Source: Roseovarius halotolerans
Lineage (GTDB): Bacteria > Pseudomonadota > Alphaproteobacteria > Rhodobacterales > Rhodobacteraceae
Length of the DNA: 64,000 bases
Assembly: GCF_900172255.1 (NCBI RefSeq)
Contig: NZ_FWFU01000002.1
Span: 558,001-622,000, forward strand
Reading direction: 5' to 3'
A program made the position numbers and the translations under genes. The stretch's first letter is position 1; the number at the start of each line of letters is the position of its first letter. Shown here one piece after another: positions 39,355-64,000 of the stretch. A model generated the notes under the pieces. It was not told where the DNA came from. It made no database searches and saw only the letters and a list, made by a program, of their open reading frames with translations.

Positions 39355-40020
39355 CTAACCGCCGCGAGGGTGGTCCGTTTCGCGCGGTTCCATCGGCAGC
39401 GCCATTACGGCACCGGCCAGGAAGCCGCCCAGATGGGTCTCCCATGCGACTGCTCCACCGGTGCCGACATACATCAGAACATTGAGCACCGTCAGAATAC
39501 CCAGCGGCCAGGCGATTGTTGCCGTTGCCCGCATCCAGCCAGGACGTTGGCGAAGGATCAAGCGGCTGTTCCAGACGATCAGCGCTCCGGCCAGCCCGAA
39601 GAGTGCGCCCGATGCACCCACCATCGGACGAAATCCGCTCGCTGCCAGGAAGGCAAAAGCAGCGCCCCCCAAGATGGTCGCCCCCACATAGATCGCCAGG
39701 AACCGCCGTTGCCCGACATAGTTGATCACCGCACCGCCAAGCGACACCATCGTGATCATATTGACGATCAGATGCATCAGGCCGCCATGCAGAAAAGCGT
39801 AGGAAAGGAACATCAGCCAGGGCTGCGCGCCGAAGTTCGGACGCCACCCCGACAGCAAGCCGGGCCAGAACGCCCCGAACTGATAGGCCAGCGCGCGCCA
39901 TCGCGGCGCGCCCCAAAGCCCATGATCCGCCCCTTGCAGCACCAGTTCGATACAGACACAGGGCAGGATCAACAGCACAAGCGCCAATGGCCAGCGGCCT
40001 ATATGAGACAGACTGCGCAT
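39355..40020 (-). CDS. Rhomboid family intramembrane serine protease
   Basis: A 221-residue inner-membrane protein with six or seven hydrophobic helices. The rhomboid features are AFLHGGLMHLIVNM, the catalytic serine motif MVGASGALFGLAG, and the catalytic histidine in WETHLGGFLAG. Substrates are unknown. ATG at 40020 is preferred over a GTG at 40023. It is not the GlyGly-CTERM-processing rhombosortase type by context; it simply neighbours the type I system and the EPS genes. Confidence 0.9.
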   Translation of the reverse strand: MRSLSHIGRWPLALVLLILPCVCIELVLQGADHGLWGAPRWRALAYQFGAFWPGLLSGWRPNFGAQPWLMFLSYAFLHGGLMHLIVNMITMVSLGGAVINYVGQRRFLAIYVGATILGGAAFAFLAASGFRPMVGASGALFGLAGALIVWNSRLILRQRPGWMRATATIAWPLGILTVLNVLMYVGTGGAVAWETHLGGFLAGAVMALPMEPRETDHPRGG

Positions 40021-40107
40021 CACGCCACTCGATACACAGGTCGCAAACGCGAAGACAAGCTGCTTGGCCGCATTATCCAGATGCCCGAATGGCGCAGGGC
40101 GCGCGTG

Positions 40108-41502
40108 TCACTGGAACAGTGTGAAGTCACGCCCGATACGCACGAACACCGAGGTCGAGTCCGACGTTCCGACGAGATCCTCGTCGCGGACGCGATAGGC
40201 GATCCCGGTCCTGAGCGACCAATCGGGCGTCAAAGCGTAATTGTAACTTGCGGTCAGATCTGTGCGCCGGGTGTCGTTCGACGTTGCCTCGTCTTCGGAC
40301 AGGCCGAAGGATGCATCGAAAGCAAGGCTTGAAAGGGTATTGATCTGATAAACATAGCCAAACGCCGCGGTGGTCGTGATGCGTTCGTCATCGTCTTCAT
40401 TGACCGAGACGTCGCGGTTCGCGCTCAATGTGATCCGACCCGTAGGCAGCTCATGCTGCCAGTTGATGCCGCCGATCAGCTTTGGATCTCCGCTTTCCTT
40501 CTGGGTGGCCCCGATGTTGAAGCTCAGCGAACCCAGGGGCAAGTCCAGCGCGCGCCCGAAACGCAAGAAGTTACGCGCGCCATTCTGGTCGCGCGTAGTC
40601 CGATAAGACACGTTGAGCGTCCCGTTTGGCATGGCGAGGCCATAGATCAGGCGACCGGTCAGACCGTCTTCCTTGCTGATGATGCCAAACTCTTCCTCCT
40701 CGGTCTGACTATATCCGATCGCGGCCTCGATTGTGGCGCGCTCCGACAATTCATGGGCGATGCCAATCTCGACTATATCGGTGTCACGCTCTGTATCGGC
40801 CGGATCATCGGACTCATAATGGCTGAAATCGTACCCCACGAATGCGGTCGAAACAGGCGACAGGCGCAACCGGGATTCGATCCCATACGCATATCGGAAC
40901 GAGTCGTCATTGGTGGCCCCCGCGCCATCCGAATAGGTGATGCCGCTCACGCTGGCATCAAAGACAAATCCGAGGGGCGCGTCGATCCCGGTTTCGAACT
41001 GAGTGCTAAAACTGTAGTTCTGCCGGGTGCCTGTGTTTCGCCGATCCTCGAAATTAGTGGGCAACACGATCACGCCGGTTTCATCGGCAAAGCTGGATAG
41101 CGGCTCGAAGAACGCGGCATCGGTTTCCCTGTAGCTGCCGGTCATCGACAGCCGCGAGTTTGCGCCCTCTCGTCCATAGGACAGGCTCACGCTCGGCTCC
41201 ACAAAACCGGTGCCGATATCGCTATTGCTGGGTAATTCTCCGAACCGCAACTTACCGGCAAGGCCAAGGGAAAGGGACTGAGTGCTGGTTTCCGACAGAA
41301 GACCCAGGGACAGCGTGGTCGTCGACAGCGCGGTCGCACCCTCCTCGGGGTTCTCGAGCGCAAGGTTGTCACCGGCCTCGATTTCCTGCTCGACGCCCAG
41401 GATCACGCGCATGCCGGTCGCGCCATCCTGCGCGACCGCCGGCACGACAGCACAGGCAAGCCCGCCTGATACCATGGCCTGGACTAATCTCGTCTTGTTC
41501 AA
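40108..41502 (-). CDS. Outer-membrane beta-barrel protein of the exopolysaccharide locus
   Basis: A 464-residue exported protein. The signal peptide MNKTRLVQAMVSGGLACAVV ends PAVAQ. The rest is alternating-residue beta strands (for example RLSMTGSYRETDAAFF, FGYVYQINTLSSLAFDASFG) and ends in RIGRDFTLF-Q, compatible with an outer-membrane barrel. It resembles the barrel proteins that accompany PEP-CTERM/exosortase EPS loci. The start is most likely the TTG at 41502, with GAGGGGGC upstream and the signal peptide immediately after; the frame is open to another TTG at 41532. It follows the Wza-like gene by 22 bases. Confidence 0.78.
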   Translation of the reverse strand: MNKTRLVQAMVSGGLACAVVPAVAQDGATGMRVILGVEQEIEAGDNLALENPEEGATALSTTTLSLGLLSETSTQSLSLGLAGKLRFGELPSNSDIGTGFVEPSVSLSYGREGANSRLSMTGSYRETDAAFFEPLSSFADETGVIVLPTNFEDRRNTGTRQNYSFSTQFETGIDAPLGFVFDASVSGITYSDGAGATNDDSFRYAYGIESRLRLSPVSTAFVGYDFSHYESDDPADTERDTDIVEIGIAHELSERATIEAAIGYSQTEEEEFGIISKEDGLTGRLIYGLAMPNGTLNVSYRTTRDQNGARNFLRFGRALDLPLGSLSFNIGATQKESGDPKLIGGINWQHELPTGRITLSANRDVSVNEDDDERITTTAAFGYVYQINTLSSLAFDASFGLSEDEATSNDTRRTDLTASYNYALTPDWSLRTGIAYRVRDEDLVGTSDSTSVFVRIGRDFTLFQ

Positions 41503-41524
41503 AACTGCCCCCTCGAAAACAGGG

Positions 41525-42139
41525 TTATTCAAAAAGTCGTCTTTGCGGCACGATGATCACGTCCCCCGAAGAGAGGATGGTCGTGCCGATGCTGGTCTTG
41601 CCTTGAAGAATTGCGTCGTAGTTGACGTTGTAAATCCGCTCGGTGCGCGACTTGTCCGTGCGGCGCAACTGAATGCGTTTCGTGGCGGCGAATTTCGAGA
41701 ACCCGCCAACTGCGGCCAGTGCCTGCAACAGGGTGGTTCCCTGCTCCAGCTTGACGGCGCCGGGGCTGGCAACTTCGCCCAGAACGTAGATCGTGTCTGT
41801 CGGGGGCGCCGCGGCAGCGCGCGATGCCCGGGGGGCCGCGAGGCTACTCAGGGTCACGAAGACCGTCGGCTCAGCCGCGAAATTCGGAGCCAGCTTGCTG
41901 CTGACTTCGCTGCGAACCTGTTCGATGGTGCGACCGCCTGCCGTGACGCTTCCTGCCAGCGGCAGAGAGATGCGCCCATCAGGCAGCACGAGTGTATCGC
42001 GGTTGATGCTGGAATCCTCAAGCACCTCGACGCGCACGACATCGCCAGGTTTGATTCGATAGCTATCCTGAGCGTTTGCGGAATGGCCCATCAGCGGTGT
42101 GACGAGCAGAGCGGCGAGGAGGGTGATAATGCGTTTCAT
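41525..42139 (-). CDS. Polysaccharide export protein (Wza/poly_export + SLBB)
   Basis: A 204-residue exported protein with signal peptide MKRIITLLAALLVTPLMGHS, cleaved near ANA. It has a poly_export domain (YRIKPGDVVRVEVLED, LPDGRISLPLAGSV) and one SLBB-like segment (IYVLGEVASPGAVKLEQGTTLLQAL), ending ILSSGDVIIVPQRRLFE. It lacks a lipobox cysteine and is shorter than enteric Wza, so it is a compact version that may need the neighbouring beta-barrel to cross the outer membrane. It is the first gene of a two-gene operon with that barrel. Confidence 0.9.
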   Translation of the reverse strand: MKRIITLLAALLVTPLMGHSANAQDSYRIKPGDVVRVEVLEDSSINRDTLVLPDGRISLPLAGSVTAGGRTIEQVRSEVSSKLAPNFAAEPTVFVTLSSLAAPRASRAAAAPPTDTIYVLGEVASPGAVKLEQGTTLLQALAAVGGFSKFAATKRIQLRRTDKSRTERIYNVNYDAILQGKTSIGTTILSSGDVIIVPQRRLFE

Positions 42140-42453
42140 GCCGGGCTCTCGAATTTAATGACGTTGAATTAGCGTTACTGAAAACTACGCTCCAAAAGCC
42201 GGTTTCGGAAGGGAATTCTCGGATTCCGCCAAGAAATCAAGCAAACGGTACGGAAGCCGTGCCACCAATGCAACAAGCAGCGCTCGTGGTCTCTCTGTTG
42301 CCACATTTGAGGCGGATTAACGCAATGTTCACCTTTTTTGTGCCCCTTTTCGGCCAAAGATCGGTAAGATTCGTCTGTTCAAACTGGGTGTGACGCGTCA
42401 TATCGCAACGCGCGATCAACAGATTGCAACCGAACCGCAAGGGACTCGCATTG
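42140..42453. other. Intergenic region upstream of the Wza-like gene
   Basis: These 314 bases lie between the divergent Wza-like gene and a small membrane-protein gene. They are relatively AT-rich, have no gene I can support, and must contain the promoter of the Wza-barrel operon. I see no clear sigma-70 or sigma-54 elements. Confidence 0.5.
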
Positions 42454-43023: not shown

Positions 43024-43677
43024 ATGAAATTTAGAGTTGCAATTAGCGCAGCTATCGCATCGGTCATGATGGTTTCGGCCGCTGCAGCTGCATCACTCTC
43101 GATTAGCGGGGGAACGTCGTTCGTCCTGGGAAGCGGAAGTGATCCGCATGATCCGACTTATGGGGATCCAAGCATCGCACCCAGCGTCGGAAACGGCGAT
43201 TCCGTTCTCGCATTTGGCGACGGCTTCACGAATTTCGACGGAAGCAACGGGCTCAGTTTGAGCGAAAATTCCATCATCCAGGTCACTTTCCTGGGCAAGG
43301 AGGCGAACGCGACCAACGTCGCCATGAACTATGGCACGGGTTCCATCTCCAACAATGATCTCGCCGGCAGCTTCTTCCGCACGAATGATGATCCTGACTG
43401 GGTCGCACTGGTCTTTGAAACCTTCGACAAGAACGGAGGCAGCCTGGGCACGATCGAGAACAACACCGCAGGTCAGACCTACGCCGGCCTTTCCATGGCA
43501 TTCTTCCAGGAAGATTCGAAGAACGTCATCGCCTTCTTCGGCGACGGTCGCGGCGACACGGATTTCGACGACATGGTCGTTCGGATTTCGATCGTTCCGC
43601 TGCCGGCAGGTGGTGTTCTTCTGCTGACCGCGCTTGGTGGGTTCGCCGTCGCGCGCCGCAAGAAGAAAGCAGCCTGA
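43024..43677 (+). CDS. VPLPA-CTERM sorting-domain protein, exported
   Basis: A 217-residue secreted protein. The signal peptide ends near SAAAAA (residue ~23). A Gly/Asn/Ser/Asp-rich beta-type body follows (FVLGSGSDPHDP, FGDGRGDTDFDD). The C-terminus has the three-part sorting signal: VPLPAGG at residues ~192-198, a hydrophobic helix (VLLLTALGGFAVA) and a basic end (RRKKKAA). This is the VPLPA-CTERM signal recognised in Rhodobacteraceae by exosortase XrtD-type enzymes, so the protein is probably cleaved and released or attached to the cell surface. A good AGGAGA precedes the start and a strong terminator follows, so it is a single-gene unit. Confidence 0.88.
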   Translation: MKFRVAISAAIASVMMVSAAAAASLSISGGTSFVLGSGSDPHDPTYGDPSIAPSVGNGDSVLAFGDGFTNFDGSNGLSLSENSIIQVTFLGKEANATNVAMNYGTGSISNNDLAGSFFRTNDDPDWVALVFETFDKNGGSLGTIENNTAGQTYAGLSMAFFQEDSKNVIAFFGDGRGDTDFDDMVVRISIVPLPAGGVLLLTALGGFAVARRKKKAA

Positions 43678-43984: not shown

Positions 43985-46435
43985 TCATTCAGCAGAGCCC
44001 GAGCTTCCCTCGCCATTCTGAATGGTCTTCAGCAACTCACGGGCCTCTTGGATCTGCGGCAGCGGGTTGTCACCTGACAGTTCGATCGCCTTTTGCAAGG
44101 TCGCCCGGGCGTCTTCCGGACGATCAAGCTCCAGATAGGTGCGGCCCAGGTGATACTGCACGAGCGGATCCGTGGGCAGACCTTCGGCCGCCGGTTCCAG
44201 ATGCGTAAGCGCCTCGTTCAAGTCACCCCTGCGGAAGGCGATCCAACCATAGGTATCCTGCAATGGCGGCACTTCGATTCCACGAAGACGACGTGCGACA
44301 GCATAGGCGCGTTCAAGGCTTTCATCGTCGTTGCGGTGAGTGCTGATCAAGCTGGCAAGATTGTTGGCAACGATCATGTTGTTGCTGTTTTCCTCGTAAA
44401 GCGCCTCATAGATCGCGATGGCGCCCTCGAAATCGCGGTCCTGCTCCAGCAGCTCGGCCTTGAGCATACGGACATTGAACGCCTCGGGGGCCCGCTCGAT
44501 CTGTTCGTCCAAGATCGCGCGCGCATCATCCAGTCGATCCTCGGCGCGGAGAAGCGTATATAGCGATCGAATAGCCGCATCATTACCCGGATACTCATCC
44601 AGCAACGCGCGATAAATCGTTTCGGCCTCGCCGCGTTCATCCGAAATAACGTGTAGTCCGGCGCGCAAGAAGCGCAAGGCGGGATCATCGGGCGACTCGG
44701 CAAGCTTCTCTTCCAACGTCTCAATCGCCGCATCGGTGTTACCTGCACGCAGCTGGGTCTGAACCAGTGCCGTAATCGCCTTGGCATCTCCTGATGTTTC
44801 GGACAGTTCTTCCAGGAAAGCGACCGTATCGTCCAGCCGGTCCTGCTGGAGCATCATCTCGGCCTCGAGACCATTGGCGGCCGCCGTCGCCTCGGCTGTT
44901 TCAAACGAGCGGAGCTTCCAGATGACGCGCTGCGCCTCGTTCCACTCCTGGTTCCGGATGTGAAGCGTTCCGCTCGCCTGAAGCAGTTCGAGATTGTCAG
45001 GCGACTTGTTGAGCGCCTCTGTCAGAAGCGCACTGGCCGCCTCGTTCCGATTTTCGGCAGAAAGAAACCGGGCATAGCGAAGGGATTCCTCGGGCGCCCC
45101 TTCGGAAAGTTCGACAGCAAGCGCATATCTTTCACCAGCCAGGGATCTGTCGCCCGCCCGTTCGTGGGCGCGCGCCATCAAGGTCATGACCTCAGGGTCG
45201 CGGGGTGCTTGTGAAAGGGCAGTGCGCAGATCGATGATCGCCGCGCCGGGTTTGTCCTCTTCGATCAGCCAATTCGCGCGCGCCTTGAGCGCCTGCACGT
45301 TGCTGGGGTCGTCTGCGAGAATCTCTTCCACCCGGGCGCGGGCGCCAACATGGTTGCCGGTTGCAGCCAACATCTGTGCCAGCACAAATTTCGCTCTGTT
45401 GCTGTCACCGGTCGCTTCCTCGATCCCGTCCAACAGCTCTTCAAGCGTCGCGATCGCCTCGTCGCGCTTGCCGTCGTCGAAATCCATGGATGCGAGAACG
45501 GCGATATAGGTGGTCGGATCTTCTTCGCTTTCGATCAAGTTCTCCAGCTCGTCGCGCGCGGCGTCATTCCCCTTTGTGCGACGCAGGAATTGCACGACGG
45601 CTAGCTTCGCGCCGTCTTCGGCGTCGGGCCGCTGTGCGAGTTCACGCAGGAATCGCTCGGCACCCTCCATGTCACCCCGTTTGATATACCAGGTGATCAG
45701 CATCCGGCGGGCTTCTTCATCGTCGGGGAAGGCCTCGACCATCTTTTCGAGGGTTTCCCCGACCGCATCCATATCGCCAGCCTGCACATTCGCGCTCAGC
45801 TTGATCCGGTGCAGTTCGTAGCTTTCGGGTCGCTGGTCGAGGCCCTCGTCTATAACGGGAAGCGCTTCTTCGATCTTGCCGCTGTTGGCCAGGTAATCAA
45901 TGACAACCATCCGGGCGATGAAATTGTCCGGCGCTTCATCAAGCCGGTTACGCGCGTCCTCTGCGGCGTCGGCGCGGGCGTCGGCATTCTCGCTGCGGGT
46001 CGCATCGCCATAAGCCAAGGCGGTTTCGATCACCTTCACCCGCGGGTCATCGGGCGCCAATTTGATCGCGGCGTCGCCATGGCGGCGGGCCTCTTCCCAG
46101 TTGCGACCGTTGATGGCCATCTCAGCCAGTGCAATCCTGGCTTCGACCGTGTCGGGATACTGTTCTACCACACGCAGGAACTGACCATAGGCCTCGGAGG
46201 GATTCCCCCGCTCCATCTGGGTCCGCGCATAGGCCATGCGCGCATCCTTGTGCTGCGGATCAAGCTTGAAGACATTGCGGAATTCGACAAAGGCGCGACT
46301 GAAGTCACCTTCGGAAAGAAGTTCCATTGCCGTTTCAAAATGCCGCTGCGCGCGCTCTTCCGAGGTCTCGCACCCGGAAAGCACGAGCGCGGATGTCAAT
46401 ACAAGGGCTGTCAATGTAGCGGAACGTCGACGCAT
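43985..46435 (-). CDS. TPR-repeat lipoprotein of the exopolysaccharide system (PrsT-like)
   Basis: An 816-residue predicted lipoprotein. The signal peptide MRRRSATLTALVLTSALVLS ends at the lipobox LSGC. Nearly the whole protein is tetratricopeptide repeats, for example GDFSRAFVEFRNVFKLDPQH, DLNEALTHLEPAAEGLPTDP and RPEDARATLQKAIELSGDNP. This is the size and design of PrsT-type proteins found in PEP-CTERM/exosortase EPS loci, thought to be periplasmic scaffolds. The ATG at 46435 is preferred over earlier in-frame starts (46447, 46453), because GGAA lies upstream and the signal peptide begins there. It is downstream of the sugar transferase on the same strand. Confidence 0.85.
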   Translation of the reverse strand: MRRRSATLTALVLTSALVLSGCETSEERAQRHFETAMELLSEGDFSRAFVEFRNVFKLDPQHKDARMAYARTQMERGNPSEAYGQFLRVVEQYPDTVEARIALAEMAINGRNWEEARRHGDAAIKLAPDDPRVKVIETALAYGDATRSENADARADAAEDARNRLDEAPDNFIARMVVIDYLANSGKIEEALPVIDEGLDQRPESYELHRIKLSANVQAGDMDAVGETLEKMVEAFPDDEEARRMLITWYIKRGDMEGAERFLRELAQRPDAEDGAKLAVVQFLRRTKGNDAARDELENLIESEEDPTTYIAVLASMDFDDGKRDEAIATLEELLDGIEEATGDSNRAKFVLAQMLAATGNHVGARARVEEILADDPSNVQALKARANWLIEEDKPGAAIIDLRTALSQAPRDPEVMTLMARAHERAGDRSLAGERYALAVELSEGAPEESLRYARFLSAENRNEAASALLTEALNKSPDNLELLQASGTLHIRNQEWNEAQRVIWKLRSFETAEATAAANGLEAEMMLQQDRLDDTVAFLEELSETSGDAKAITALVQTQLRAGNTDAAIETLEEKLAESPDDPALRFLRAGLHVISDERGEAETIYRALLDEYPGNDAAIRSLYTLLRAEDRLDDARAILDEQIERAPEAFNVRMLKAELLEQDRDFEGAIAIYEALYEENSNNMIVANNLASLISTHRNDDESLERAYAVARRLRGIEVPPLQDTYGWIAFRRGDLNEALTHLEPAAEGLPTDPLVQYHLGRTYLELDRPEDARATLQKAIELSGDNPLPQIQEARELLKTIQNGEGSSGSAE

Positions 46436-46564
46436 TGGGGGTTCCATGTTCAAAAGTGTTTTCTGGTTACTGCCAACTCAAATTGGCATTTTCGAGGCGT
46501 AGAACAGGATAAGGCCGCCCACGACGGTTTCGCAAGCGGCCCTCCGGCTTTCGCCAGGAGATTG

Positions 46565-47257
46565 TCAGCATCCGGTCCCACGCAACACCACCGCTACGGT
46601 CGATGCGAGGACCGACATATCGGTACCAAGGCTTACATCCTCGAAGTAGCGGTCGTCGAAGTCAGCGCGCGCCGCGAACGTGGACTGGTTGCGGTCCGAA
46701 ATCTGCCAGTAGCCGGTAATACCCGGTCGCATGGCGTAATAGGCAACCCCGGGATAAAGGGCCTTCTGGTCGGGCATCATCGGGCGCGGCCCCACCAGGC
46801 TCATATCACCGACAAATACGTTCCACAGCTGCGGCAACTCGTCCAAGGAAGTCTTCCGCAGGAGGCGCCCAAGGCGCGTTACACGGGGGTCTTCGGTCAG
46901 CTTTTGCTTATGATCCCACTCGGCACGGGCCTCGGCATCGGCTTCGAGATGCGCGTTGAGCCGCGCATCGGCATCATGCACCATGCTGCGCAGCTTCCAC
47001 ATGTAGAACAGGCGTCCATCTTTGCCGATCCGCGCCTGCTTGTAGAACGGGTTCCGACCATCCAGCGAAATTGCCAGAGCCAGAATTGCAACAAAGGGAA
47101 CGACAATCGGAGCCGCCGCAATGACGAACGCAATATCGAGAGCGCTTTTCAGAAATCGACGATAGAGATTGGATTGGCCTTTTTGAGAGCCGGCAATGCG
47201 AGGGCGAATTCTGATAACGCTCAGATCCGTGGAAAAGTTCTTTTCCTGAATAGTCAT
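46565..47257 (-). CDS. Priming sugar-phosphate transferase (bacterial sugar transferase)
   Basis: A 230-residue membrane enzyme that moves a sugar-1-phosphate from UDP-sugar to undecaprenyl phosphate, the first step of polymer repeat-unit assembly. A single hydrophobic hairpin ([23 protein letters not shown]) is followed by [41 protein letters not shown] and [14 protein letters not shown], all diagnostic. It lacks the long N-terminal membrane region of WbaP and so is an ExoY-like short form. The start ATG at 47257 has GAGGAA upstream. Confidence 0.93.
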
Positions 47258-47785
47258 AACAATACGCTTCCTCAAAATAGCTTCGGACCTCAAACGCGAT
47301 CCTTGGCGAAAGGTTCAATAGCCTGCTCGAACTAGAAATTTTTGCTCGGGGGGCAGACAGACCGAGAATTAAATATTTGAAAACGGGGCAGCACTCGTGA
47401 ATGAACACAGGCTAGCACCCGAGGAAGAGTCGCGCAAAGGATTAACGGAGAAATACGTCCTCAAGGCTGAGTATTGCACCCGCCCTGACAACTTCAAGTG
47501 TATTATTGTTCAACACTTGTGACAAATACTAGCATGAGCGGGGATTGTGTCGCGAATGTGGCAAGTTGCGAACATCAATATGGCCAAATTCAGGCGCGCA
47601 GATCCGAATCATGTCAGTATTTCCACGAACCAACCGCATGCGTCCCCGACGGCGACATGAAATCACCGCAGAGCCGGCCTTTTGTGGACAAAGCGGTGAT
47701 CTAGGAGTTGAATGGGAATTTGTAAGTTTTCTGGTCTGCCCCAGTGGCTTGGCCGAAGTTGTTTTATTCAGTTTAAAGGATCGCC
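47258..47785. other. Divergent intergenic region between sugar transferase and AAA ATPase genes
   Basis: This 528-base region has no gene I can support. It is AT-richer than its flanks. An inverted repeat CAAGTGT-N11-ACACTTG lies at 47495-47519. It must carry the promoters of the leftward sugar-transferase/TPR genes and of the rightward ATPase/chain-length/kinase operon, so it is the likely control point of polymer export. Confidence 0.5.
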
Positions 47786-48985
47786 ATGTACAGCGACGGC
47801 ACTTCGACACGACAGATTGGCAAACCTTTGGTAGAGGCGGGGTCGCGCATCAGCGTGCGCATCAAGGAACGCGTCATGGCTCTGAAGGAAGGCAGGCGCC
47901 CTCCGGCCCAGACGCAGCCTCAAACGCAAGCCCGGACGCCACATTCGGACGTTGCACTCCTGTTTCGAAGTGTCCGCAAGGCTTGCAACGGTACTCTGCG
48001 CAATGCCGACTCGCGACGCCGCAACAACCTTGCGATGTCCAAAGCCCCGATTGACCGTGGCGTATCGGATCAAGACGGGTTCAAATCGGTGGATGGAACA
48101 GGTGATTCAAGTTACATGAGCGACATGAACGGCGCGCTAAATATTTACACAAGTCATTTTGGCCTCACGGCCCGTCCCTTTACCCTCGTGCCGGACCCTG
48201 ACTTTCTTTTCTGGTCGGCGGCGCATACACGCGCCTACACAATGCTTGAATATGGCACGCTTACGGGGTCTCCAATCACACTGATCACTGGCGAGGTTGG
48301 TGCCGGCAAGACCACGCTCCTGCACAAGTTTCTCAAGGGGATCGGCGACGATGTGAAAATCGGACTCGTGTCCAATGCCAGTGGCTCTCGCGGCGAGTTG
48401 CTGCGCTGGGTGCTGATGGCGCTGGATCAGCCGGCTGACAGGAACGCCACCTATGTTGATCTGTTCGATGCCTTCCAGCGATATCTGATCGAAGAATACG
48501 CGCAAGGCCATCGGGTGATCCTGATCATCGACGAGGCCCAGAACCTGAGCATCGAGTCCCTTGAAGAACTCAGGATGTTCACCAACATTAATTCCAACAA
48601 GGACGAGTTGCTTCAACTGGTGCTGGTCGGACAGCCCGAGCTGCGCGACACGATCCGCCGACCCGACCTCAAGCAGTTCGCACAGAGAATCGCCGCCAGT
48701 TTTCATCTGAACGCGATGAACGAGAAAACCGTTATCTCCTATATCGCGCACAGGCTGCGCGTCGCAGGGGCAAGCCGAAATCTTTTTGCCGAAGCCGCCT
48801 GCAAGCTTATTCACCAGCAAAGCGGCGGTGTGCCGCGTCTGGTTAACCAACTCTGCGACCTTTCAATGGTTTATGCCTTTACCAAGGATCAGAAGACGGT
48901 AACTCTGGCAACCGTCCAGGAAGTTCTTGATGATGGCACTTTTTTTGCGGCCGGTTCCATTTCTGACAATGACGAGAGGGCTTGA
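47786..48985 (+). CDS. ExeA-like AAA ATPase of the exopolysaccharide/exosortase type
   Basis: A 399-residue protein. From residue ~118 it reads NIYTSHFGLTARPFTLVPDPDFLFW, the typical start of the XrtA-associated/ExeA-like ATPase family. Walker A is GEVGAGKTT near residue 169 and Walker B is ILIIDEAQNL near residue 245, with the sensor region GGVPRLVNQLCDLSM. Residues 1-110 are an unusual polar extension. The ATG at 47786 has AAAGGA upstream, so I keep it, but translation could begin at the ATG at 48116 (MSDMNGALN). Such ATPases accompany chain-length regulators and EPS kinases; their exact task is unknown. Confidence 0.85.
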   Translation: MYSDGTSTRQIGKPLVEAGSRISVRIKERVMALKEGRRPPAQTQPQTQARTPHSDVALLFRSVRKACNGTLRNADSRRRNNLAMSKAPIDRGVSDQDGFKSVDGTGDSSYMSDMNGALNIYTSHFGLTARPFTLVPDPDFLFWSAAHTRAYTMLEYGTLTGSPITLITGEVGAGKTTLLHKFLKGIGDDVKIGLVSNASGSRGELLRWVLMALDQPADRNATYVDLFDAFQRYLIEEYAQGHRVILIIDEAQNLSIESLEELRMFTNINSNKDELLQLVLVGQPELRDTIRRPDLKQFAQRIAASFHLNAMNEKTVISYIAHRLRVAGASRNLFAEAACKLIHQQSGGVPRLVNQLCDLSMVYAFTKDQKTVTLATVQEVLDDGTFFAAGSISDNDERA

Positions 48986-50544
48986 TGCTCCCTGATTTCA
49001 AATTCATGTTTTCGCTCTTTTTGCGACGGCTTCATTATTTCCTGATCGTTGCACTGGCTGTCGCCGCCGTCGGCTTGACCGTGGCCTACACGCTGCCGCC
49101 CAGCTACAGCGCCCGCGCGACACTCTTGGTCGAGTCTCCGCAGATTCCCGATGACATGGCCGAGTCCACAGTCCGAGCCGGAACCGACGAAGTCTTGCAG
49201 ATCATTGCCCAGCGCATCCAGACTCGTGCCAAAATGCTGGAGATGGCGCGCGAGTTCGATGTCTATAGCGATCGCCCGAATATCAGCGCTGATGACATCG
49301 TTAACGATATGCGAAGCCGTATCGGAATCGATCTGCCAAGGCGGCGCGATGCGGCCTCGTTCGTTTACGTGTCTTTTAGATCGGATTCCGGCCGAATGTC
49401 TGCCGAGGTCACCAACGAACTGGTGACTCGTATTCTCGACGAGAACCGGCGTCTGAGGACGTCGGTCACCGGCCAGACGCTCGAATTCTTCAAGCAGGAA
49501 GTTGCCCGGCTGGATCGGGAAATGTCCGTTCAAGGCGCCAAGATTCTCGAATTCAAGAGGAATAATCAGGGGGCTCTGCCTGACAGCCTTGATTTCAGAC
49601 GCAGTCGTCAGGCGTCGGTGCAGGAACGCGTGCTGCAAATGGAGCGTGAACTTTCGGCACTGCGCGATCGTCGCGCCCGGCTGACCGACCTTTATGAGCG
49701 CACCGGAGAGGTGGTAACAGACGCCGAGGACCTGACACCCGAAGAATCCCGCCTTCAGGAGCTCAGAAACCAGCTTGCGTCGGCCCTGGTGCTCTATTCG
49801 GACCAGAACCCGCGGGTCAAAGCGCTGCGCGCGCAGGCCGAAGCGGCCGAAAAGATCGTGATGGAACAGCGTCGCCGGAAAGGCGAGGGAACCGAGGCTC
49901 TCTCAGCCTATGAAATTCAGCTGGCCGATCTCGACGCCCAGATGGAGTATATCCTGGAGGAGAAGGCCTCGCTGGTCGAGGAACTGACTGCGCTTGAGAA
50001 GTCCATCGACGAGACGCCGGAAAACGCCATCGCCCTCGGCACGCTGGAGCGCGATTACGAGAACCTCCAGGTGCAATACCAACAGGCCACACGCGATCTT
50101 GCTGCAGCCCGCACCGGTGACCAGATCGAGGCGCAGTCGCGCGGCCAACGGATCGCCGTCGTCGAGCAGGCGACGGTTCCGCGAGCACCCACCAGTCCGC
50201 CGCGCAAGAAAATCGCTGCGGCGGGCGTCGCAGGTGGTATCGGTCTCGGCGCGGCCTTCGTAGTCCTGATAGAGATGCTGAACCGTTCCATCCGCCGCCC
50301 GGCGGATCTGACGAACCGGCTGGGTATCACGCCCTTCGTGTCGATCCCCTACATTCGCACACGGCGTCAGGCGTTAACCCGGCGAAGCATCATCATTACC
50401 GCATTGATCTTCGTCACGGTGGGGATCCCCGTTGGGCTCTACCTCGTTCATTTGTTGTATTTGCCGATGGATCTTCTGATCGAGAAAGGCCTCGAGAAAA
50501 CCGGCCTTTCAGACATCGTCGAGCAGATCCGAAGCGCATTCTAG
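48985..50544 (+). CDS. Chain-length determinant protein (Wzz/GumC family)
   Basis: A 519-residue inner-membrane polysaccharide co-polymerase. The N-terminal helix (YFLIVALAVAAVGLTVAYTLP) and the C-terminal helices (AAAGVAGGIGLGAAFVVLIEML and IIITALIFVTVGIPVGLYL) flank a long periplasmic coiled-coil region (residues ~170-400). The proline-rich segment VPRAPTSPPRKK before the last helices is typical. It has no cytoplasmic kinase domain; that is supplied by the next gene. ATG at 48985 touches the stop of the AAA ATPase gene, so the genes are coupled. Confidence 0.92.
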   Translation: MLPDFKFMFSLFLRRLHYFLIVALAVAAVGLTVAYTLPPSYSARATLLVESPQIPDDMAESTVRAGTDEVLQIIAQRIQTRAKMLEMAREFDVYSDRPNISADDIVNDMRSRIGIDLPRRRDAASFVYVSFRSDSGRMSAEVTNELVTRILDENRRLRTSVTGQTLEFFKQEVARLDREMSVQGAKILEFKRNNQGALPDSLDFRRSRQASVQERVLQMERELSALRDRRARLTDLYERTGEVVTDAEDLTPEESRLQELRNQLASALVLYSDQNPRVKALRAQAEAAEKIVMEQRRRKGEGTEALSAYEIQLADLDAQMEYILEEKASLVEELTALEKSIDETPENAIALGTLERDYENLQVQYQQATRDLAAARTGDQIEAQSRGQRIAVVEQATVPRAPTSPPRKKIAAAGVAGGIGLGAAFVVLIEMLNRSIRRPADLTNRLGITPFVSIPYIRTRRQALTRRSIIITALIFVTVGIPVGLYLVHLLYLPMDLLIEKGLEKTGLSDIVEQIRSAF

Positions 50545-50560: not shown

Positions 50561-51427
50561 ATGGAACGTATTCAGGCAGCGTTGAAGAAAGCTCGCGAGA
50601 GCCGTGGAGAGCAGGGTCGCGAACGACCGGATGCACAGGTCAAGCCGCGTAGCGAAAACAAGAGCAACGACACTCTGATCCTTCACGAGGATATGGCTCT
50701 TGGTGATCGCGATGAAATCTGGAAGGCGGTGCAACCGTTCCAGCCTTCTGACCGCCTCCTGAACCGCAATCGCATAATCAGTCACCGCTCCTGCCCAGAA
50801 AGCGTGCCCTATGACGTGATGCGCACCAAGCTGCTGCAAAAGATGCGCAGCAAGAACTGGACACGTATCGCGATCACTTCGCCAACGGCGGGTGCGGGCA
50901 AGACGATGACATGCATCAATCTGGCATTCAGCCTTTCGCGGCAAAGCGACGTTCATTCGATGTTGCTCGAGCTCGACATGCGCCGCCCCAGCATGGCGCG
51001 AATGCTGGGTTTGACAGACTCGTGTCAACTCGCCCGCGCCCTTGCCGGCGATGAAGCGCCCGAGAAACACATGCGCCGTTATGGCAAGAACCTGATTTTC
51101 GGCGCCAATCGCGCCCCTGAACGCAACCCGGCCGAGCTCCTGCAAGGCTCACGCTCCGCTCATGTGGTGGACGAGATCGAAGCGCAGTTCAGGCCGGATA
51201 TCATGATCTTCGACACACCGCCGCTCTTTGCGGGCGACGACACGATGGCGTTTCTTGACCAGGTGGACTGCGCGCTGTTGATCGCAGAGGCTGAAAAATC
51301 CACGATCGAGGATATCGACAAATGCGAACAGGAACTGGCCGCGCGCACGAATGTTCTGGGCGTTGTCCTCAATAAATGCCGTTACCTGAGCCGACACGAG
51401 GAATATGGCAAGGAATACGGGTATTGA
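50561..51427 (+). CDS. Polysaccharide tyrosine autokinase (CpsD/CapB-type BY-kinase)
   Basis: A 288-residue cytoplasmic P-loop kinase that partners the chain-length protein. Walker A is TAGAGKTM near residue 109, Walker A' is LLLELDMRRPS near residue 134 and Walker B is IMIFDTPPLF near residue 214. The C-terminus carries a tyrosine cluster (YLSRHEEYGKEYGY), the usual autophosphorylation sites. N-terminal helix MERIQAALKKARESR is also typical of the XrtA-associated version. It starts 16 bases after the Wzz gene ends, closing the three-gene operon. Confidence 0.92.
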   Translation: MERIQAALKKARESRGEQGRERPDAQVKPRSENKSNDTLILHEDMALGDRDEIWKAVQPFQPSDRLLNRNRIISHRSCPESVPYDVMRTKLLQKMRSKNWTRIAITSPTAGAGKTMTCINLAFSLSRQSDVHSMLLELDMRRPSMARMLGLTDSCQLARALAGDEAPEKHMRRYGKNLIFGANRAPERNPAELLQGSRSAHVVDEIEAQFRPDIMIFDTPPLFAGDDTMAFLDQVDCALLIAEAEKSTIEDIDKCEQELAARTNVLGVVLNKCRYLSRHEEYGKEYGY

Positions 51428-51570: not shown

Positions 51571-52638
51571 TCAATGCTCCTCCAGGCAGGCAGCGAATAT
51601 GCGTGCGCTGTCTTTCCAGGAATAGGACTCAACCGCGTTCGCGGCATTCTGCGACATGGTTTTCCAGACATCAGGTGCTGCGGATAGCACTCTGACCAAG
51701 CGGTCCGCCAAGGCTTCGACATCGTCGATATCGACAACATAACCGTTGAAGCCATCTCTTATTGCATCAGGGGCGCAGCCGGTGCGCGTGGCGACGACCG
51801 GGCAACCGCAGGCCATCGCCTCGAGCACCGGAAGGCCGAATCCTTCTGAACTACTGCCAAAAAGATAAACATCGCTGGCAGCATAGATCCGCGGGATATC
51901 TGTCTGTGGTGGCGATTTGTGATAGGTCGCATATCCGGGCAGCGGCAGCCGTTCGAGGGGGTCGATGGTGCCGAAAGCCAAAAGCGAAAGTTCGGGCAGA
52001 CGTTTCTTGACGATATCGAGAGCCTTGAGGCTGATATCCATGCCTTTGAAGAGTTTGCCGGAATACATCAGGCTGACGGTCGGTACACTTCGTTTGTCGT
52101 GCGGGTGGAATACGAATTGTTCGTGATCCACAGCATTGGGCACAACAGGCACATCGCCCTCGCCATACTCGGACCTCATGACATCCCGCAGCCAGTTTGA
52201 GACGACGATCTTCCTGAGTGGCAGTCGATAGGAAGCTGCACCAAGCTCGGAATAGAGAGGATTGTGGATCTCGTGGTGCTGCACGAAATAGAATTTCCGG
52301 CCCTTTGCCGCGGACAGGTTTGCGACCATGTAGGCGGTGGTCCAGAAAGTCGCGATCACCACGTCACCGTCAGGCACATCGTCATCGGTGATCCGTTCAG
52401 TATTCGGAGTAAGATGCAGCCGCGCCTTCATGTTATCGAAATGGCTTTTCTCCGGGCGGGGTTGTGGCCTCTGGCCTTTCAGGAATCGCTTGAGCGCCTG
52501 CTTTCGGCTGACATGGGGATGAGGCTGTGCCACGATCGTCACGTCATGACCCATCTCTGTCAGCAGGTCGGCATAGATCGCGATCACGCGGTTGCCGCCG
52601 GAAAGGTTAGGAGGGGTGCAGATGAACGTGATCTTCAC
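51571..52638 (-). CDS. Glycosyltransferase family 4
   Basis: A 355-residue GT-B glycosyltransferase. It starts MKITFICTPPNLSGGNRVI and has the donor-site region LFGSSSEGFGLPVLEAMACGCPVVAT with the conserved EGFGLPVLE motif. It probably adds one sugar of the polymer repeat unit on the cytoplasmic face. GTG start at 52638 overlaps the upstream gene's stop by four bases. It is the last gene of a minus-strand operon of two GTs and two oxidoreductases, and faces the kinase gene convergently. Confidence 0.9.
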   Translation of the reverse strand: MKITFICTPPNLSGGNRVIAIYADLLTEMGHDVTIVAQPHPHVSRKQALKRFLKGQRPQPRPEKSHFDNMKARLHLTPNTERITDDDVPDGDVVIATFWTTAYMVANLSAAKGRKFYFVQHHEIHNPLYSELGAASYRLPLRKIVVSNWLRDVMRSEYGEGDVPVVPNAVDHEQFVFHPHDKRSVPTVSLMYSGKLFKGMDISLKALDIVKKRLPELSLLAFGTIDPLERLPLPGYATYHKSPPQTDIPRIYAASDVYLFGSSSEGFGLPVLEAMACGCPVVATRTGCAPDAIRDGFNGYVVDIDDVEALADRLVRVLSAAPDVWKTMSQNAANAVESYSWKDSARIFAACLEEH

Positions 52639-53901: not shown

Positions 53902-54966
53902 CTACCCCTCCACGGTCCGGCCGCGGGCCTGTTGCAGGATCTCGAGCGTGCTGACCGACAGATCGAGCGGGATGAGACCGCTTTCGCGCTGCCCGCCCCG
54001 GATCAGCTCGACGAAATGCGTCAGAACAGGCAGATAGGGATCTGCCCCGTAGCCAAGAAACCGGCCCGCAGACATATCGCGCTTGCGCTTGATTTTCCTG
54101 GCGCGGGGCCATGCACGGATCCGGTCCGTCAGTCCGACCTGCGCGCCGGGCCGGGCCTCTGTCTCCGCTGCGGGGAGCATCTGCGATGCGGTCAGGACTT
54201 CGGCACCGACCACAGGCGCGCCAAGACCCAGATGGCCATGGGTGCAGGCCAGCGAGGCGGTATTCGACATCAGGGCATTGAGCGCGACAGCGACATGCGA
54301 GACCGCACCGGATTGATGGTGCAGGCGAAGGTCGGCCATCACGTCGACACCCCGGTCATTTCTTTGCGCGTTGCAGTCCACATCTGTCACCGGCCCGAGC
54401 AGATTCAGCGCCAGCGCCACGCCATAGACCGCGCGGTCAAGGATCACACCGCCGTCATCGGGGTCGAACAACGAAGCGTGGTTTTCGGGCTGCACAGGGT
54501 AGCCGAAATCGAAATGCAGGTGAACAGGGCTGCCATAGGCACCTCCCGCCAACTGATCGCGCAACGCGAGGTAGGCGGGCAGCGCGAGGCACCAGAGGTT
54601 TTCCATCACGAGGCAATCGCTTTCGCGTGCCGCCTCGGCAAGCGTGCGCGCTTGGTCGGCGGTCAGGGCAAGCGGTTTCTCGACGAGCACCGGCTTTCGG
54701 GCCTTTACCGATTGTAGCGCAGCAGCGGCATGGTCGCGGGTGCGTCCGGCGACATAGACCGCATCGACCTGCTCGTTCTGCACCATGTCGGTAAGATTGC
54801 CCGTCGCTTCGGCGACACCGCACTGATCGGCAAACCAGCGCGCGCGCGCTCCATCGCCCGAGGCGATGGCCGTCACGGTGACGTCGGGATCATGCTTAAG
54901 CGCCCGGAGCATCCGTGCCGCCATGCGCCCGGTCCCAGCAATGCCCAATCTGATCGGTTGTGTCAT
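53902..54966 (-). CDS. Gfo/Idh/MocA-family oxidoreductase (first)
   Basis: A 354-residue NAD(P)-dependent sugar dehydrogenase-like protein. The Rossmann motif is LGIAGTGRMAARML and the family motif is PVLVEKPLALTADQA near residue 95, with the conserved EKP. It likely oxidises or reduces a nucleotide sugar for the polymer. It follows the second Gfo/Idh/MocA gene by one base, and the two share limited similarity outside the N-terminal domain, so they are not a recent duplication. Confidence 0.9.
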   Translation of the reverse strand: MTQPIRLGIAGTGRMAARMLRALKHDPDVTVTAIASGDGARARWFADQCGVAEATGNLTDMVQNEQVDAVYVAGRTRDHAAAALQSVKARKPVLVEKPLALTADQARTLAEAARESDCLVMENLWCLALPAYLALRDQLAGGAYGSPVHLHFDFGYPVQPENHASLFDPDDGGVILDRAVYGVALALNLLGPVTDVDCNAQRNDRGVDVMADLRLHHQSGAVSHVAVALNALMSNTASLACTHGHLGLGAPVVGAEVLTASQMLPAAETEARPGAQVGLTDRIRAWPRARKIKRKRDMSAGRFLGYGADPYLPVLTHFVELIRGGQRESGLIPLDLSVSTLEILQQARGRTVEG

Positions 54967-60911: not shown

Positions 60912-60914
60912 GGC

Positions 60915-61904
60915 TCAGCTCTCCCGCGCATGCCGGTCGCCGAGGGGCGACAGGATGTTGGTCCAGATATCGCGCGCTTCGCCCGCGTTGCTGGGTGGAA
61001 CCTCCTTGCCAGCAAGAACCCTCAGCCGTGCGATCAAGCGCCCCAGAAGCCATGCGGCATTCGCCCGCAAAGGGCCAAGCGGCCCGTAAAGCTGGCGAAA
61101 CAGGCGGGTGCGAGAGGCGTAGTAATAGGCAGGCAGACGTTTGCGACCGCTTGCAAGGGCCTTGAGCGGACCGCTGCCACCCCGGAAATGGACGACGCGT
61201 GCCTCCGGCACATAGGCGATCCGCCAGTCAGCGCGCCGCGCACGCCAGCAATACTCGACGTCCTCGAAATAGAGAAAATAACCTTCGTCCATCGGACCGA
61301 CCTGTCGGATCATCCTGTCGCGCAGCAGGATGCAGGCGAAGCTGGCCCAGTCGATCTGGTCGCTTCGGGGCGGCATGGTGAGCGACACTTCGCGCGATGC
61401 GAGAACCCGGCTGACGGGGCCACTTCGCGCACCGCGTATCAGCTCGCTTGCGGGTGAGGGGAAGCGAAAGCAACTGACCTGCTGCTCGCCATCGTCATAT
61501 TCGATACAAGGCGCCAGGAACCCCGCATCAGGGTTGGCATCGGCGGTGTTCAGGATCGTCTCAAGAAAGCCGGGCCGCACGACCGTATCGGAATTGAGCA
61601 CAAGGTAGAATTCCGCCTCGCGCGCTCCGATACCCTGATTGTGCCCGCCCGAGAAGCCGGAGTTCGTATCGGATCGGATCAGGCTGACCGGTGTATCGGC
61701 TGGCAGGCTGGCGATCCAGGCGGCGATCTCCTCGGCCGATCCGTCGCCCGACAGGTTGTCGACGACGACCACATGCGCATCGATACCGCCGATATCATCC
61801 AGCACCGAGCGGACGCAGCAAATGGTCATCTCTGCCGTCCGATAATTGATGATCGAGACAACGAGCTTGTGTGATGGCGAAGAGGAAATGCCAGTCTCCG
61901 TCAC
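60915..61904 (-). CDS. Glycosyltransferase family 2 (rhamnosyltransferase-like)
   Basis: A 329-residue GT-A transferase of the rhamnosyl/galactofuranosyl type. It has VSIINYRTAEMTICCVRSV, VVVVDNLSGDGS, NSGFSGGHNQGI and LVLNSDTVVRPGF, and the later MDEGYFLYFEDVEYCWRAR with the ED acceptor pair. The start is a GTG at 61904 with a weak ribosome-binding site. It is first of a three-gene minus-strand set with the sulfotransferase and another GT2, and diverges from the polymerase gene. Confidence 0.92.
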   Translation of the reverse strand: MTETGISSSPSHKLVVSIINYRTAEMTICCVRSVLDDIGGIDAHVVVVDNLSGDGSAEEIAAWIASLPADTPVSLIRSDTNSGFSGGHNQGIGAREAEFYLVLNSDTVVRPGFLETILNTADANPDAGFLAPCIEYDDGEQQVSCFRFPSPASELIRGARSGPVSRVLASREVSLTMPPRSDQIDWASFACILLRDRMIRQVGPMDEGYFLYFEDVEYCWRARRADWRIAYVPEARVVHFRGGSGPLKALASGRKRLPAYYYASRTRLFRQLYGPLGPLRANAAWLLGRLIARLRVLAGKEVPPSNAGEARDIWTNILSPLGDRHARES

Positions 61905-62168
61905 GTCAGGGTCCGGTTCAGAAATTCATGCGCGCAAAAAATGCCGGTTCATCCGGGACTATAGGTAGGCGGCACCGGTTTCGTAAAGGCCTGCAACATT
62001 TCGAGAAACAATCGGGCAGGGCAAATCCGAATTGTTGGCCGGAAACGTATGCCAACCTGGCATATCACCAATCCGGATGTTTCGCGCGCGGCCGAAACCT
62101 CGTATGAATGGAACAGAAGCCAATTTCAGGCCGACCGCAGTTCCGCGACGAGAAACGAATAGACACAT

Positions 62169-63725
62169 ATGCCATCGAATTTCGCCTATCTTGCCCTGTT
62201 TCTCTGGCCCGTTGTCGTCTTCATCCTGTTCACGAAGCGTCCCGTGAACGAGGCGCTCGCCTGGTCGATCATCGCAGGTTACATGCTGCTGCCCGAGATC
62301 ACCGCATTTGACCTGCCGGTGCTGCCGGCATGGGGGAAGCAGCTGGTGCCAAGCCTGTTCGCGGCGATCATGTGCTATACGATGCTACAGATGCACAAGG
62401 CGCATGCCGCAGGTCCAGCTGTGGCGCGCGCGCCTGCTCAGCGACGTGACGTGCAAAGGACATTCTCGATAGACGACTTCACCGTGCAACGCGGGCGTGT
62501 TCTGTTTTGGGTGTTGCTGCTTTTGCTGTTCGGATCGCCATTCATTACGGCAATCACAAACCGCGAACCGGTTTCGGAGGGGTTCCGCTTCATATCGGGG
62601 ATGCGCATTTATGACAGCTTCTCGATGAACCTTGATCTGCTTGTGTCCTTGTTACCGTTCTTTCTGGCGCGCCGCTTCCTGGCAAGCCCGGAAAGCCATG
62701 TGACCCTGCTGAAGGTTCTGGCGCTTGCCTGCCTGGCGTATTCCCTGCTGGCACTGTGGGAAGTGCGCATGAGTCCGCGGCTGAACCGCGAGATCTACGG
62801 GTTCTTCGGCCATAGCTGGTCGCAGCATGTCCGCTATGGTGGGTATCGACCGATCCTTTTCCTGAACCACGGGATCTGGGTGGCCATCCTGTTCACGCTT
62901 GGCGTGCTGGCCTCGGCTGCACTTTGGCGTGATCAACTCAGGCACGGGTCTGCGGGGAAATGGCTCTTGGCCTCGCTCTGGCTCTTGGGGGTGCTGATTT
63001 TGTGTAAATCCGTCGGCGCCATCGCCATCGCGTTTCTGCTTTTGCCCATGTTGCTGTTCTTCGGGGCGCGCATGCAGCTTATGAGCGCCGCCCTGATCGC
63101 GGCTACGGTGATGACCTATCCGATCCTGCGTGGTGCCGATCTTGTCCCGACCGACCGAATTCATTCATTTTTCTCGAAAATAGACACCGACAGGGCGAGC
63201 ACCCTGCAGTACAGATTCAATGCCGAGGATCTGCTGCTTGAGCGGGCGAACCAGAAGCCACTTGCGGGCTGGGGAAGTTGGGGCAGAAACCGCGTCAGCA
63301 ATGACTCGGGACGAGATGCCGCCGCGACGGATGGTTATTGGGTGATCGTGATCGGCGTTTACGGTTGGCTGGGCTATATCGCGCAGTTCGGCTTGCTTGC
63401 GGCGGCGCCAGTTCTTCTGGCGTTCAACAAGAGCCGTCTGAACCTATCTCCGGCGACAGTGGGATTGACGGTTGTTCTCGCGGCTGCGCTGATCGATCTT
63501 ATTCCGAATGCCACAACCTCACCAGTGGTCTGGCTTTTGGCTGGCGCGCTGATGGGGCGCTATCAGACCGCTGTCGCAGGAGCGAAAGCGCTAAACCCGC
63601 AGGCTGCGCGCGCCGGTACCGAACCGCGTCGCAGCAGCGCGGCGCCACAAGAGGTTCCCGCCATGAAGCCAGAGCGCGAAGCACCGCGATACCCGGCGCA
63701 TGTGCGGCGTCCGAGGGAAGGATGA
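62169..63725 (+). CDS. O-antigen polymerase/ligase-like membrane protein
   Basis: A 518-residue inner-membrane protein with about ten hydrophobic helices, beginning FAYLALFLWPVVVFILF. The large periplasmic loop (about residues 330-395) contains STLQYRFNAEDLLLERANQKPLAGWGSWGRNR, the pattern of Wzy/O-antigen ligase-like proteins just before the last helices. It would polymerise repeat units or ligate them to an acceptor. The C-terminal ~50 residues are polar. A single ATG at 62169 fits the first helix. Confidence 0.82.
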   Translation: MPSNFAYLALFLWPVVVFILFTKRPVNEALAWSIIAGYMLLPEITAFDLPVLPAWGKQLVPSLFAAIMCYTMLQMHKAHAAGPAVARAPAQRRDVQRTFSIDDFTVQRGRVLFWVLLLLLFGSPFITAITNREPVSEGFRFISGMRIYDSFSMNLDLLVSLLPFFLARRFLASPESHVTLLKVLALACLAYSLLALWEVRMSPRLNREIYGFFGHSWSQHVRYGGYRPILFLNHGIWVAILFTLGVLASAALWRDQLRHGSAGKWLLASLWLLGVLILCKSVGAIAIAFLLLPMLLFFGARMQLMSAALIAATVMTYPILRGADLVPTDRIHSFFSKIDTDRASTLQYRFNAEDLLLERANQKPLAGWGSWGRNRVSNDSGRDAAATDGYWVIVIGVYGWLGYIAQFGLLAAAPVLLAFNKSRLNLSPATVGLTVVLAAALIDLIPNATTSPVVWLLAGALMGRYQTAVAGAKALNPQAARAGTEPRRSSAAPQEVPAMKPEREAPRYPAHVRRPREG

Positions 63726-63732
63726 ACCCAGC

Positions 63733-64000
63733 GTGAAGCAGATTTCCGGGAAGGTCACGGTCGACCCTTACGATTGCCCCGAGGATCGCCTGATCACGGC
63801 GCGTTCGCATCTTGTCGATCGCTTCGTGCCGGATTGCGAGCGCATCACGCTTCCGGCAAAGCGCGTGGGCGGCGGATCGGTCTCTTTCGAAAAGAAGGCG
63901 TTGGTGGCGCAGCCGCCCAATCGCGCGAAGCGCCGCTTTCTCTCGTTTGGTCCCGCCACGGTAAAGCAACGGCGCACAGAGAAGACCTTCATCGATTTTC
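63733..64000 (+). CDS. Unrecognised gene, 5' part (cut by right edge)
   Basis: A GTG at 63733 opens a frame with no stop to the end of the window (at least 89 residues). It begins MKQISGKVTVDPYDCPEDRL and contains LVDRFVPDCERITLPAKR. I do not recognise the family. It starts seven bases after the polymerase stop with GAAGGA upstream, so it is probably in the same operon. No signal peptide or membrane segment is seen in the visible part. Confidence 0.55.
   Translation, partial: MKQISGKVTVDPYDCPEDRLITARSHLVDRFVPDCERITLPAKRVGGGSVSFEKKALVAQPPNRAKRRFLSFGPATVKQRRTEKTFIDF

Follow-up and report, generated by a model that had tools for sequence, protein, structure and literature searches.

A probable XrtD/VPLPA-CTERM exopolysaccharide locus of Roseovarius halotolerans, with XrtD at the far end of its glycosyltransferase cluster

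A 64,000-nucleotide stretch of the Roseovarius halotolerans genome (contig NZ_FWFU01000002.1, positions 558,001 to 622,000, or G000:C8:558001-622000 in our numbering; called the window below) raises the question of where its exosortase is. It carries the genes of an exosortase-style polysaccharide locus and, among them, the gene for a secreted protein of 217 residues with a VPLPA-CTERM tail, the signal of the exosortase XrtD, but no exosortase gene. A first-pass annotation, made from the sequence alone, had recognised the locus type and the signal and offered two explanations: either the enzyme is encoded elsewhere, or the accessory genes serve a polymer system whose exosortase has been lost or exchanged. 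For the window genome (G000) the former is correct and the latter is refuted: the glycosyltransferase cluster continues beyond the window, and an intact XrtD gene closes it 14.7 kb from the right edge. The exosortase thus seems to be missing only through an edge effect, and we are highly confident that the window comprises the greater part of an exopolysaccharide locus of the XrtD/VPLPA-CTERM type from a Roseovarius-like bacterium.

The exosortase and the genes of the locus

Profile searches of the whole genome with the exosortase models TIGR02602 and PF09721 each gave a single match, which for TIGR02602 is C8:637460-638170(-) with 114.1 bits, and no match inside the window, in agreement with the first-pass annotation. 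The matched gene (G000:C8:636713-638179) scores 657.6-657.7 bits against the XrtD model TIGR04152, the cut-off of which is 400, and 141.8 bits against the XrtA model, under the cut-off of 208. Its open reading frame, L008:15704-17305(-), is intact and encodes 533 residues, with an exosortase domain fused to an EpsI (DUF3485) domain. Cys197, Arg242 and His263, which we take to be the three catalytic residues of exosortases, are invariant in 73/73 XrtD sequences. Between the window edge and XrtD are further glycosyltransferases (GT61, WecG and GT4), an ABC transporter, an acetyltransferase, an AMP-ligase-like protein, a large G8/PA14 protein and a 537-residue protein (L008:5361-6974(+)) without a Pfam or NCBIfam match. 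Relatives of the latter, 43-53% identical, occur in or near both XrtD-containing and XrtD-less loci (L050, L051, L058, L061, L114 and L120).

The genome encodes five VPLPA-CTERM proteins above the cut-off of TIGR03370, four of them outside the locus. Directly upstream of XrtD, a secreted protein of 191 residues (L008:17567-18142(-)) has a VPLPA-like tail on which TIGR03370 is silent; it is possibly a sixth substrate.

The ATPase, Wzz protein, BY-kinase, TPR lipoprotein, Wza-like exporter, outer-membrane barrel, priming transferase and VPLPA-CTERM protein named in the first-pass annotation are all present where it placed them. The features of the window are as follows.

39355..40023 (-), rhomboid intramembrane serine protease, 84 bases past the barrel gene; PF01694, 87.8 bits
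40108..41532 (-), outer-membrane beta-barrel protein; PF13609 (Porin_4), 40.6 bits; TIGR03016 (PEP-CTERM-associated outer-membrane protein), 24.9 against a cut-off of 90.85
41525..42139 (-), Wza-like polysaccharide export protein; PF02563, 70.2 bits; TIGR03027, 113.4 against a cut-off of 180
43024..43677 (+), secreted VPLPA-CTERM protein of 217 residues, putative substrate resident in the locus; TIGR03370, 40.3 bits against a cut-off of 25.35
43594..43668 (+) (C8:601594-601668), VPLPA-CTERM sorting signal of that protein (motif, membrane helix and basic tail); TIGR03370, residues 191-215
43985..46453 (-), PrsT-like TPR lipoprotein, 822 residues; TIGR02917, 289.9 against a cut-off of 312.2
46565..47293 (-), priming sugar-phosphate transferase, catalytic domain only; TIGR03022, 263.6 against 403; TIGR03013, 136.6 against 393.35
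48125..48985 (+), ExeA-like AAA ATPase; TIGR03015, 258.1 against a cut-off of 324.5; the open reading frame runs from 47786, and 48125 is probably the start
48982..50544 (+), Wzz/GumC chain-length determinant; TIGR03007, 190.7 against a cut-off of 278.85
50561..51427 (+), separate BY-kinase; TIGR03018, 96.3 against a cut-off of 230.65
51571..52638 (-), GT4 glycosyltransferase; PF00534
52635..53897 (-), GT4 glycosyltransferase, EpsE-like; NF041876, 209 against a cut-off of 400
53902..54966 (-), GFO/IDH/MocA oxidoreductase; PF01408
54968..56122 (-), GFO/IDH/MocA oxidoreductase; PF01408
56971..58020 (+), sulfotransferase, true start probably downstream; PF03567, 48.8 bits
58022..59038 (-), glycosyltransferase; PF13692, 33 bits
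59093..60070 (-), GT2 glycosyltransferase; PF00535
60060..60911 (-), sulfotransferase; PF00685, 66.7 bits
60915..61904 (-), GT2 glycosyltransferase; PF00535
62169..63725 (+), hydrophobic protein without a Pfam or NCBIfam match, possible Wzy-type polymerase from the look of its sequence
63700..64000 (+), GT61 glycosyltransferase, extending beyond the window edge; PF04577 on L008:700-1755

A type I secretion set (ABC protein, HlyD family protein and outer-membrane efflux protein) adjoins the locus at window positions 34709-39333(+), and the loci L056 and L062 are likewise flanked by ABC and HlyD relatives.

In the mechanism we propose, the membrane-bound priming transferase and the glycosyltransferases would build a repeat unit, possibly sulfated, which the possible Wzy would polymerise. 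Wzz, the BY-kinase and the ExeA-like ATPase would set the chain length and drive export, while the TPR lipoprotein, the Wza-like protein and the outer-membrane barrel would carry the polymer out. XrtD would recognise the VPLPA-CTERM tails, among them the one on the 217-residue protein (its gene lies between those for the TPR lipoprotein and Wza), cut them by means of its Cys/Arg/His active site and hand the proteins to the surface or the matrix, where the exported polymer may be their partner. We infer the cleavage and the order of these steps.

Distribution and gene order in the Rhodobacteraceae

A sample of 150 genomes of Rhodobacteraceae was surveyed. XrtD was counted as present above 400 bits (lowest score 582, next 151.7) and the locus ATPase at 240 bits or more (best of the next genome 26.6), both lines falling in a clean gap; for the rhomboid, counted at 90 bits or more, the next score is 74.5 and the gap is not clean. 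XrtD was found in 36 genomes, the ATPase in 47, VPLPA-CTERM proteins in 53 and the rhomboid in 40. All but one of the XrtD genomes (35/36) have the ATPase, and 35/36 have VPLPA-CTERM proteins, the exception in both respects being G113 (L098), which carries a full XrtD of 637.7 bits and has neither an ATPase match nor a VPLPA-CTERM match. The ATPase occurs in 45 of the 53 VPLPA genomes versus 2 of the 97 others. XrtD and the ATPase share a contig in 27 of the 35 genomes that have both and are on different contigs in 8; the median gap in the 27 is 6.3 kb, and the largest, 29.8 kb, is that of the window genome.

The stretches around the ATPase were examined for 46 locus-bearing genomes, the window included, and for G049; many of them end at contig ends. 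This comparison of locus order, which the first-pass annotation had recommended, gives as the commonest arrangement BY-kinase, Wzz and ATPase in one direction and priming transferase, TPR protein, Wza, barrel and XrtD in the other. The whole order, with XrtD after the barrel, is visible within a single stretch in 13 of the 46, and in 8 of those 13 the rhomboid is next after XrtD. Variants have XrtD beside the ATPase (L068, L086 and L091) or Wza and the barrel on the other side (L051, L053 and L067). XrtD and the rhomboid are adjacent on the same strand, 38-612 bases apart, in 12 loci. Direct adjacency of barrel and rhomboid, as in the window, is also seen in G114 (XrtD 4.9 kb further), in G073 (XrtD 17.6 kb away) and in G043 and G127, where XrtD is on another contig. 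In the window genome, XrtD has moved away from the accessory genes.

The 217-residue protein has a relative encoded between the TPR and Wza genes, as in the window, in 8 of 80 named loci (Roseovarius, Lutimaribacter and Actibacterium), these being the best 80 of at least 515 relatives. The nearest of the 80 belongs to Roseovarius sp. EGI FJ00037, with an ATPase 94% identical. XrtD is present in all eight genomes with the syntenic protein, and is above its cut-off in 19 of the 22 genomes checked. This synteny, and the frequency of the ATPase in VPLPA genomes, make it appear that polymer export and the 217-residue protein are indeed linked, as the first-pass annotation had proposed.

If the exosortase had been lost or exchanged, a window without an exosortase match would be expected, and the relatives fit this too, with 11 of the 46 locus-bearing genomes showing no XrtD; the intact gene of 657.7 bits just past the edge leaves this explanation with practically no probability for the window genome. 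A standard XrtA/PEP-CTERM locus has in its favour that XrtA-system models are the best NCBIfam matches of the ATPase, Wzz, TPR protein, Wza, BY-kinase and barrel (6/6), but all six proteins score under the curated cut-offs, and the priming transferase is likewise under that of TIGR03013. The first-pass annotation had thought of low accessory-model scores, and the scores are below the XrtA-model cut-offs, yet those models are still the best matches; it had also thought of an xrtA gene just beyond the right edge, and an exosortase does lie beyond it, but this is XrtD, not XrtA, and it is the only exosortase match of the genome. The cut-off of the XrtA-system ATPase model is passed in one of the 150 genomes, G049, which carries an XrtA of 308.9 bits (cut-off 208). 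The XrtD-linked ATPases are therefore a near but separate group, and an XrtA locus in the window is extremely unlikely. G049 (L097), the sole true XrtA system among the 150 genomes, with XrtA and ATPase above their cut-offs, yet has two VPLPA-CTERM matches.

Another possibility is that the locus simply makes an exopolysaccharide, with the VPLPA protein there by accident and the polymer unrelated to sorting. The distance of about 30 kb between XrtD and the ATPase would agree with this, as would the eight genomes with the two on different contigs, the four VPLPA proteins encoded elsewhere in the genome, and eight VPLPA genomes that lack both XrtD and the ATPase. The concentration of the ATPase in VPLPA genomes and the synteny of the VPLPA protein in eight loci argue against chance, and we consider such an accident very improbable. 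Several points do weigh against an XrtD/VPLPA-CTERM polysaccharide locus. XrtD lies outside the accessory operon here, and some locus-bearing relatives yielded no XrtD match, which makes sorting separable from polymer export; XrtD is found in 35 of the 53 VPLPA genomes, and 18 are without it. The exact tests on co-occurrence count the genomes as independent, though they are related, and, as the accessory proteins score under the XrtA-model cut-offs, their roles are carried over from XrtA systems by resemblance. Taken together, XrtD in the same cluster, the VPLPA proteins, co-occurrence, gene order and synteny lead us to identify an XrtD/VPLPA-CTERM polysaccharide locus from which XrtD has moved. 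What looked like an orphan is an ordinary XrtD locus; of more interest are the relatives in which no XrtD was seen.

Relatives without XrtD and the rhomboid protease

The 11 locus-bearing genomes in which XrtD was not found are G032, G056, G072, G080, G082, G097, G115, G128, G135, G140 and G141. Seven (G032, G056, G072, G080, G082, G140 and G141) are fragmented assemblies of 140-460 contigs; G115, G097, G135 and G128 are firmer. Incomplete assembly could account for the absence of XrtD, and some plasmids do carry the gene. With the window XrtD as protein query and E-values up to 10, the only match in 19 XrtD-less genomes (these 11 included) was at chance level, in G032 (E 0.28), while two controls gave E-159 or better. 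That search has little power for distant exosortases (the XrtE proteins of G128 and G065 escaped it), and the better test is the profile PF09721, which across the 11 genomes matched one gene only, the XrtE of G128. On a tree of the ATPase, Wzz, priming transferase and TPR protein, covering 44 of 47 genomes (G049, G095 and G143 were excluded for having fewer than two of these proteins) and with fragmented genomes scored as absent, the presence or absence of XrtD takes 8 changes; shuffled labels gave a mean of 10.0, and 42 of 500 shuffles were as low. The four firmer genomes occupy three or four separate places, and the sister of the window genome is G128, without XrtD.

VPLPA-CTERM proteins are kept in 9 of the 11 genomes (1, 3, 7, 8, 9, 9, 10, 14 and 20 proteins) and absent from two, and the counts are not clearly lower than in the 35 genomes that have both XrtD and the ATPase (range 1-24; p 0.60). 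The genomes of L050, L051, L052, L053, L055, L064 and L065 (G115, G097, G135, G128, G072, G141 and G140) have 3-20 each. Twenty tails from seven XrtD-less genomes look normal when compared with 20 from XrtD genomes, the tails being from the best-scoring proteins and therefore biased to good ones. Eight further VPLPA genomes have no XrtD, no ATPase and no rhomboid of at least 90 bits: G121 (18 VPLPA proteins), G028 and G065 (12 each), G012, G021, G050, G071 and G120. In L124-L128, L140 and L143 (from G121, G028 and G071) the tails are normal, and nothing that could sort these proteins turned up. For the eight genomes three explanations are conceivable: sorting by a third enzyme, tails that serve only as anchors, or an XrtD on a replicon that the assembly lacks.

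Several replacements for XrtD were considered and rejected. None is encoded in the XrtD slot between barrel and rhomboid in L052, L053, L055, L064 and L065, because the two matches are 46-103 bases apart. Across five loci (L050, L051, L052, L053 and L055), hydropathy singled out three unassigned open reading frames with at least seven hydrophobic stretches; one of them, L050:17538-19031, directly follows the barrel, and by Pfam the three are a TctA transporter, a metal P-type ATPase and an EamA transporter. A second exosortase was matched by PF09721 in 3 of the 18 XrtD-less VPLPA genomes: XrtA in G049 and XrtE (exosortase E/protease) in G128 and G065, at L122:3670-5376 and L270:1204-2796, the substrate of which is, by model name, VPEID-CTERM. 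Myxosortase-type proteases show no link, with matches in 23 of the 30 genomes asked and none above the cut-off: 10/13 XrtD-less VPLPA genomes (main set), 5/7 XrtD genomes and 8/10 others, the others including G012 and G050 with one VPLPA protein each.

The rhomboid gene has one edge at 39355, the first base of the range covered by the first-pass annotation, which does not mention it. At 90 bits or more a rhomboid is present in 36 of the 47 ATPase genomes versus 4 of the 103 others. The window protein keeps the GASG serine and THLGG histidine motifs, and the serine motif (GSSG in G115) and the histidine are kept in it and in the other 26 locus rhomboids compared. Its best NCBIfam model is that of rhombosortase (TIGR03902; 34.2 bits, under the cut-off of 84); a second rhomboid, encoded in the window genome but not in the locus, reaches 34.4, so this match says little. 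In a weakly supported tree, rhomboids of G046, G076, G123, G143, G092 and G117 and the second one of G000 group apart from most locus rhomboids, so some of the 40 counted are probably paralogues. XrtD genomes with a locus-type rhomboid have a median of 9 VPLPA proteins (n=24) versus 2 without (n=12; p 0.020), or 8 (n=27) versus 2 (n=9; p 0.025) in another grouping, both comparisons being post hoc and uncorrected. That the rhomboid so often accompanies the locus suggests that it has a part in maturing surface proteins.

The rhomboid reaches 90 bits in 9 of the 11 XrtD-less locus genomes, in 8 of them within the examined locus stretch, and in 5 the barrel and rhomboid are adjacent with the XrtD slot empty. 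Tentatively, and with more doubt than belief, we propose that where relatives have repeatedly lost XrtD, another enzyme of the locus still sorts the VPLPA-CTERM proteins, with the rhomboid as leading candidate, and that exosortase and rhomboid are interchangeable or cooperating cutters of one tag. If so, they would be two routes for one sorting tag, bound to one polymer exporter. Evidence against the rhomboid in this role is its absence, at 90 bits, from the eight VPLPA genomes without XrtD and ATPase, the lack of a rise upon XrtD loss (9/11 versus 27/35), and the equal rhombosortase score of the non-locus rhomboid.

Comparison with known systems

Our literature searches returned no paper joining VPLPA-CTERM with an exosortase, nor an exosortase with Roseovarius; papers using the terms XrtD or VPLPA (for VPLPA, among the matches listed) were off-subject by title. 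With the XrtA/PEP-CTERM exopolysaccharide locus (TIGR03015, TIGR03007, TIGR02917, TIGR03027, TIGR03018 and TIGR03016) the window shares the accessory set, but its proteins are all below the cut-offs, and both its exosortase and its sorting signal belong to the XrtD type. Across the Rhodobacteraceae, XrtD thus has its own counterpart of the accessory set known from XrtA, one that scores below curated cut-offs. With the XrtD/VPLPA-CTERM system (TIGR04152 and TIGR03370) the window genome shares XrtD with the fused EpsI domain and VPLPA-CTERM proteins, both above cut-off; its XrtD is at the far cluster end, whereas in 13 relatives it is beside the barrel gene. The locus rhomboid resembles the rhombosortase/GlyGly-CTERM system (PMC3237569) in its best NCBIfam match and its serine and histidine motifs, and differs in its sub-cut-off score.

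Among plasmid records, XrtD relatives are found in 25, ATPase relatives in 27 and both in 23. One record, NZ_CP061940.1 (Bacillus velezensis, 24 kb; hit H25), has an XrtD-like match in three pieces, and contamination or mislabelling seems likely. The plasmid pTB2 of Roseobacter denitrificans OCh 114, annotated by others, has the ATPase, sugar transferase, TPR protein, exporter and rhomboid in the order of the window, with a hypothetical protein in the place of the barrel. It also carries two VPLPA proteins and an XrtD that is 11 kb from the rhomboid, apart from the operon, the whole set lying within about 22 kb. Beside this locus is a sulfate adenylyltransferase/APS kinase, which together with the two sulfotransferases of the window suggests that the polymer may be sulfated. 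On plasmid p1 of Jannaschia sp. CCS1, the neighbourhood of XrtD includes a VPLPA protein, glycosyltransferases and a sulfotransferase. Both pTB2 and p1 are plasmids with a RepA gene, whereas the window is part of an 821-kb contig.

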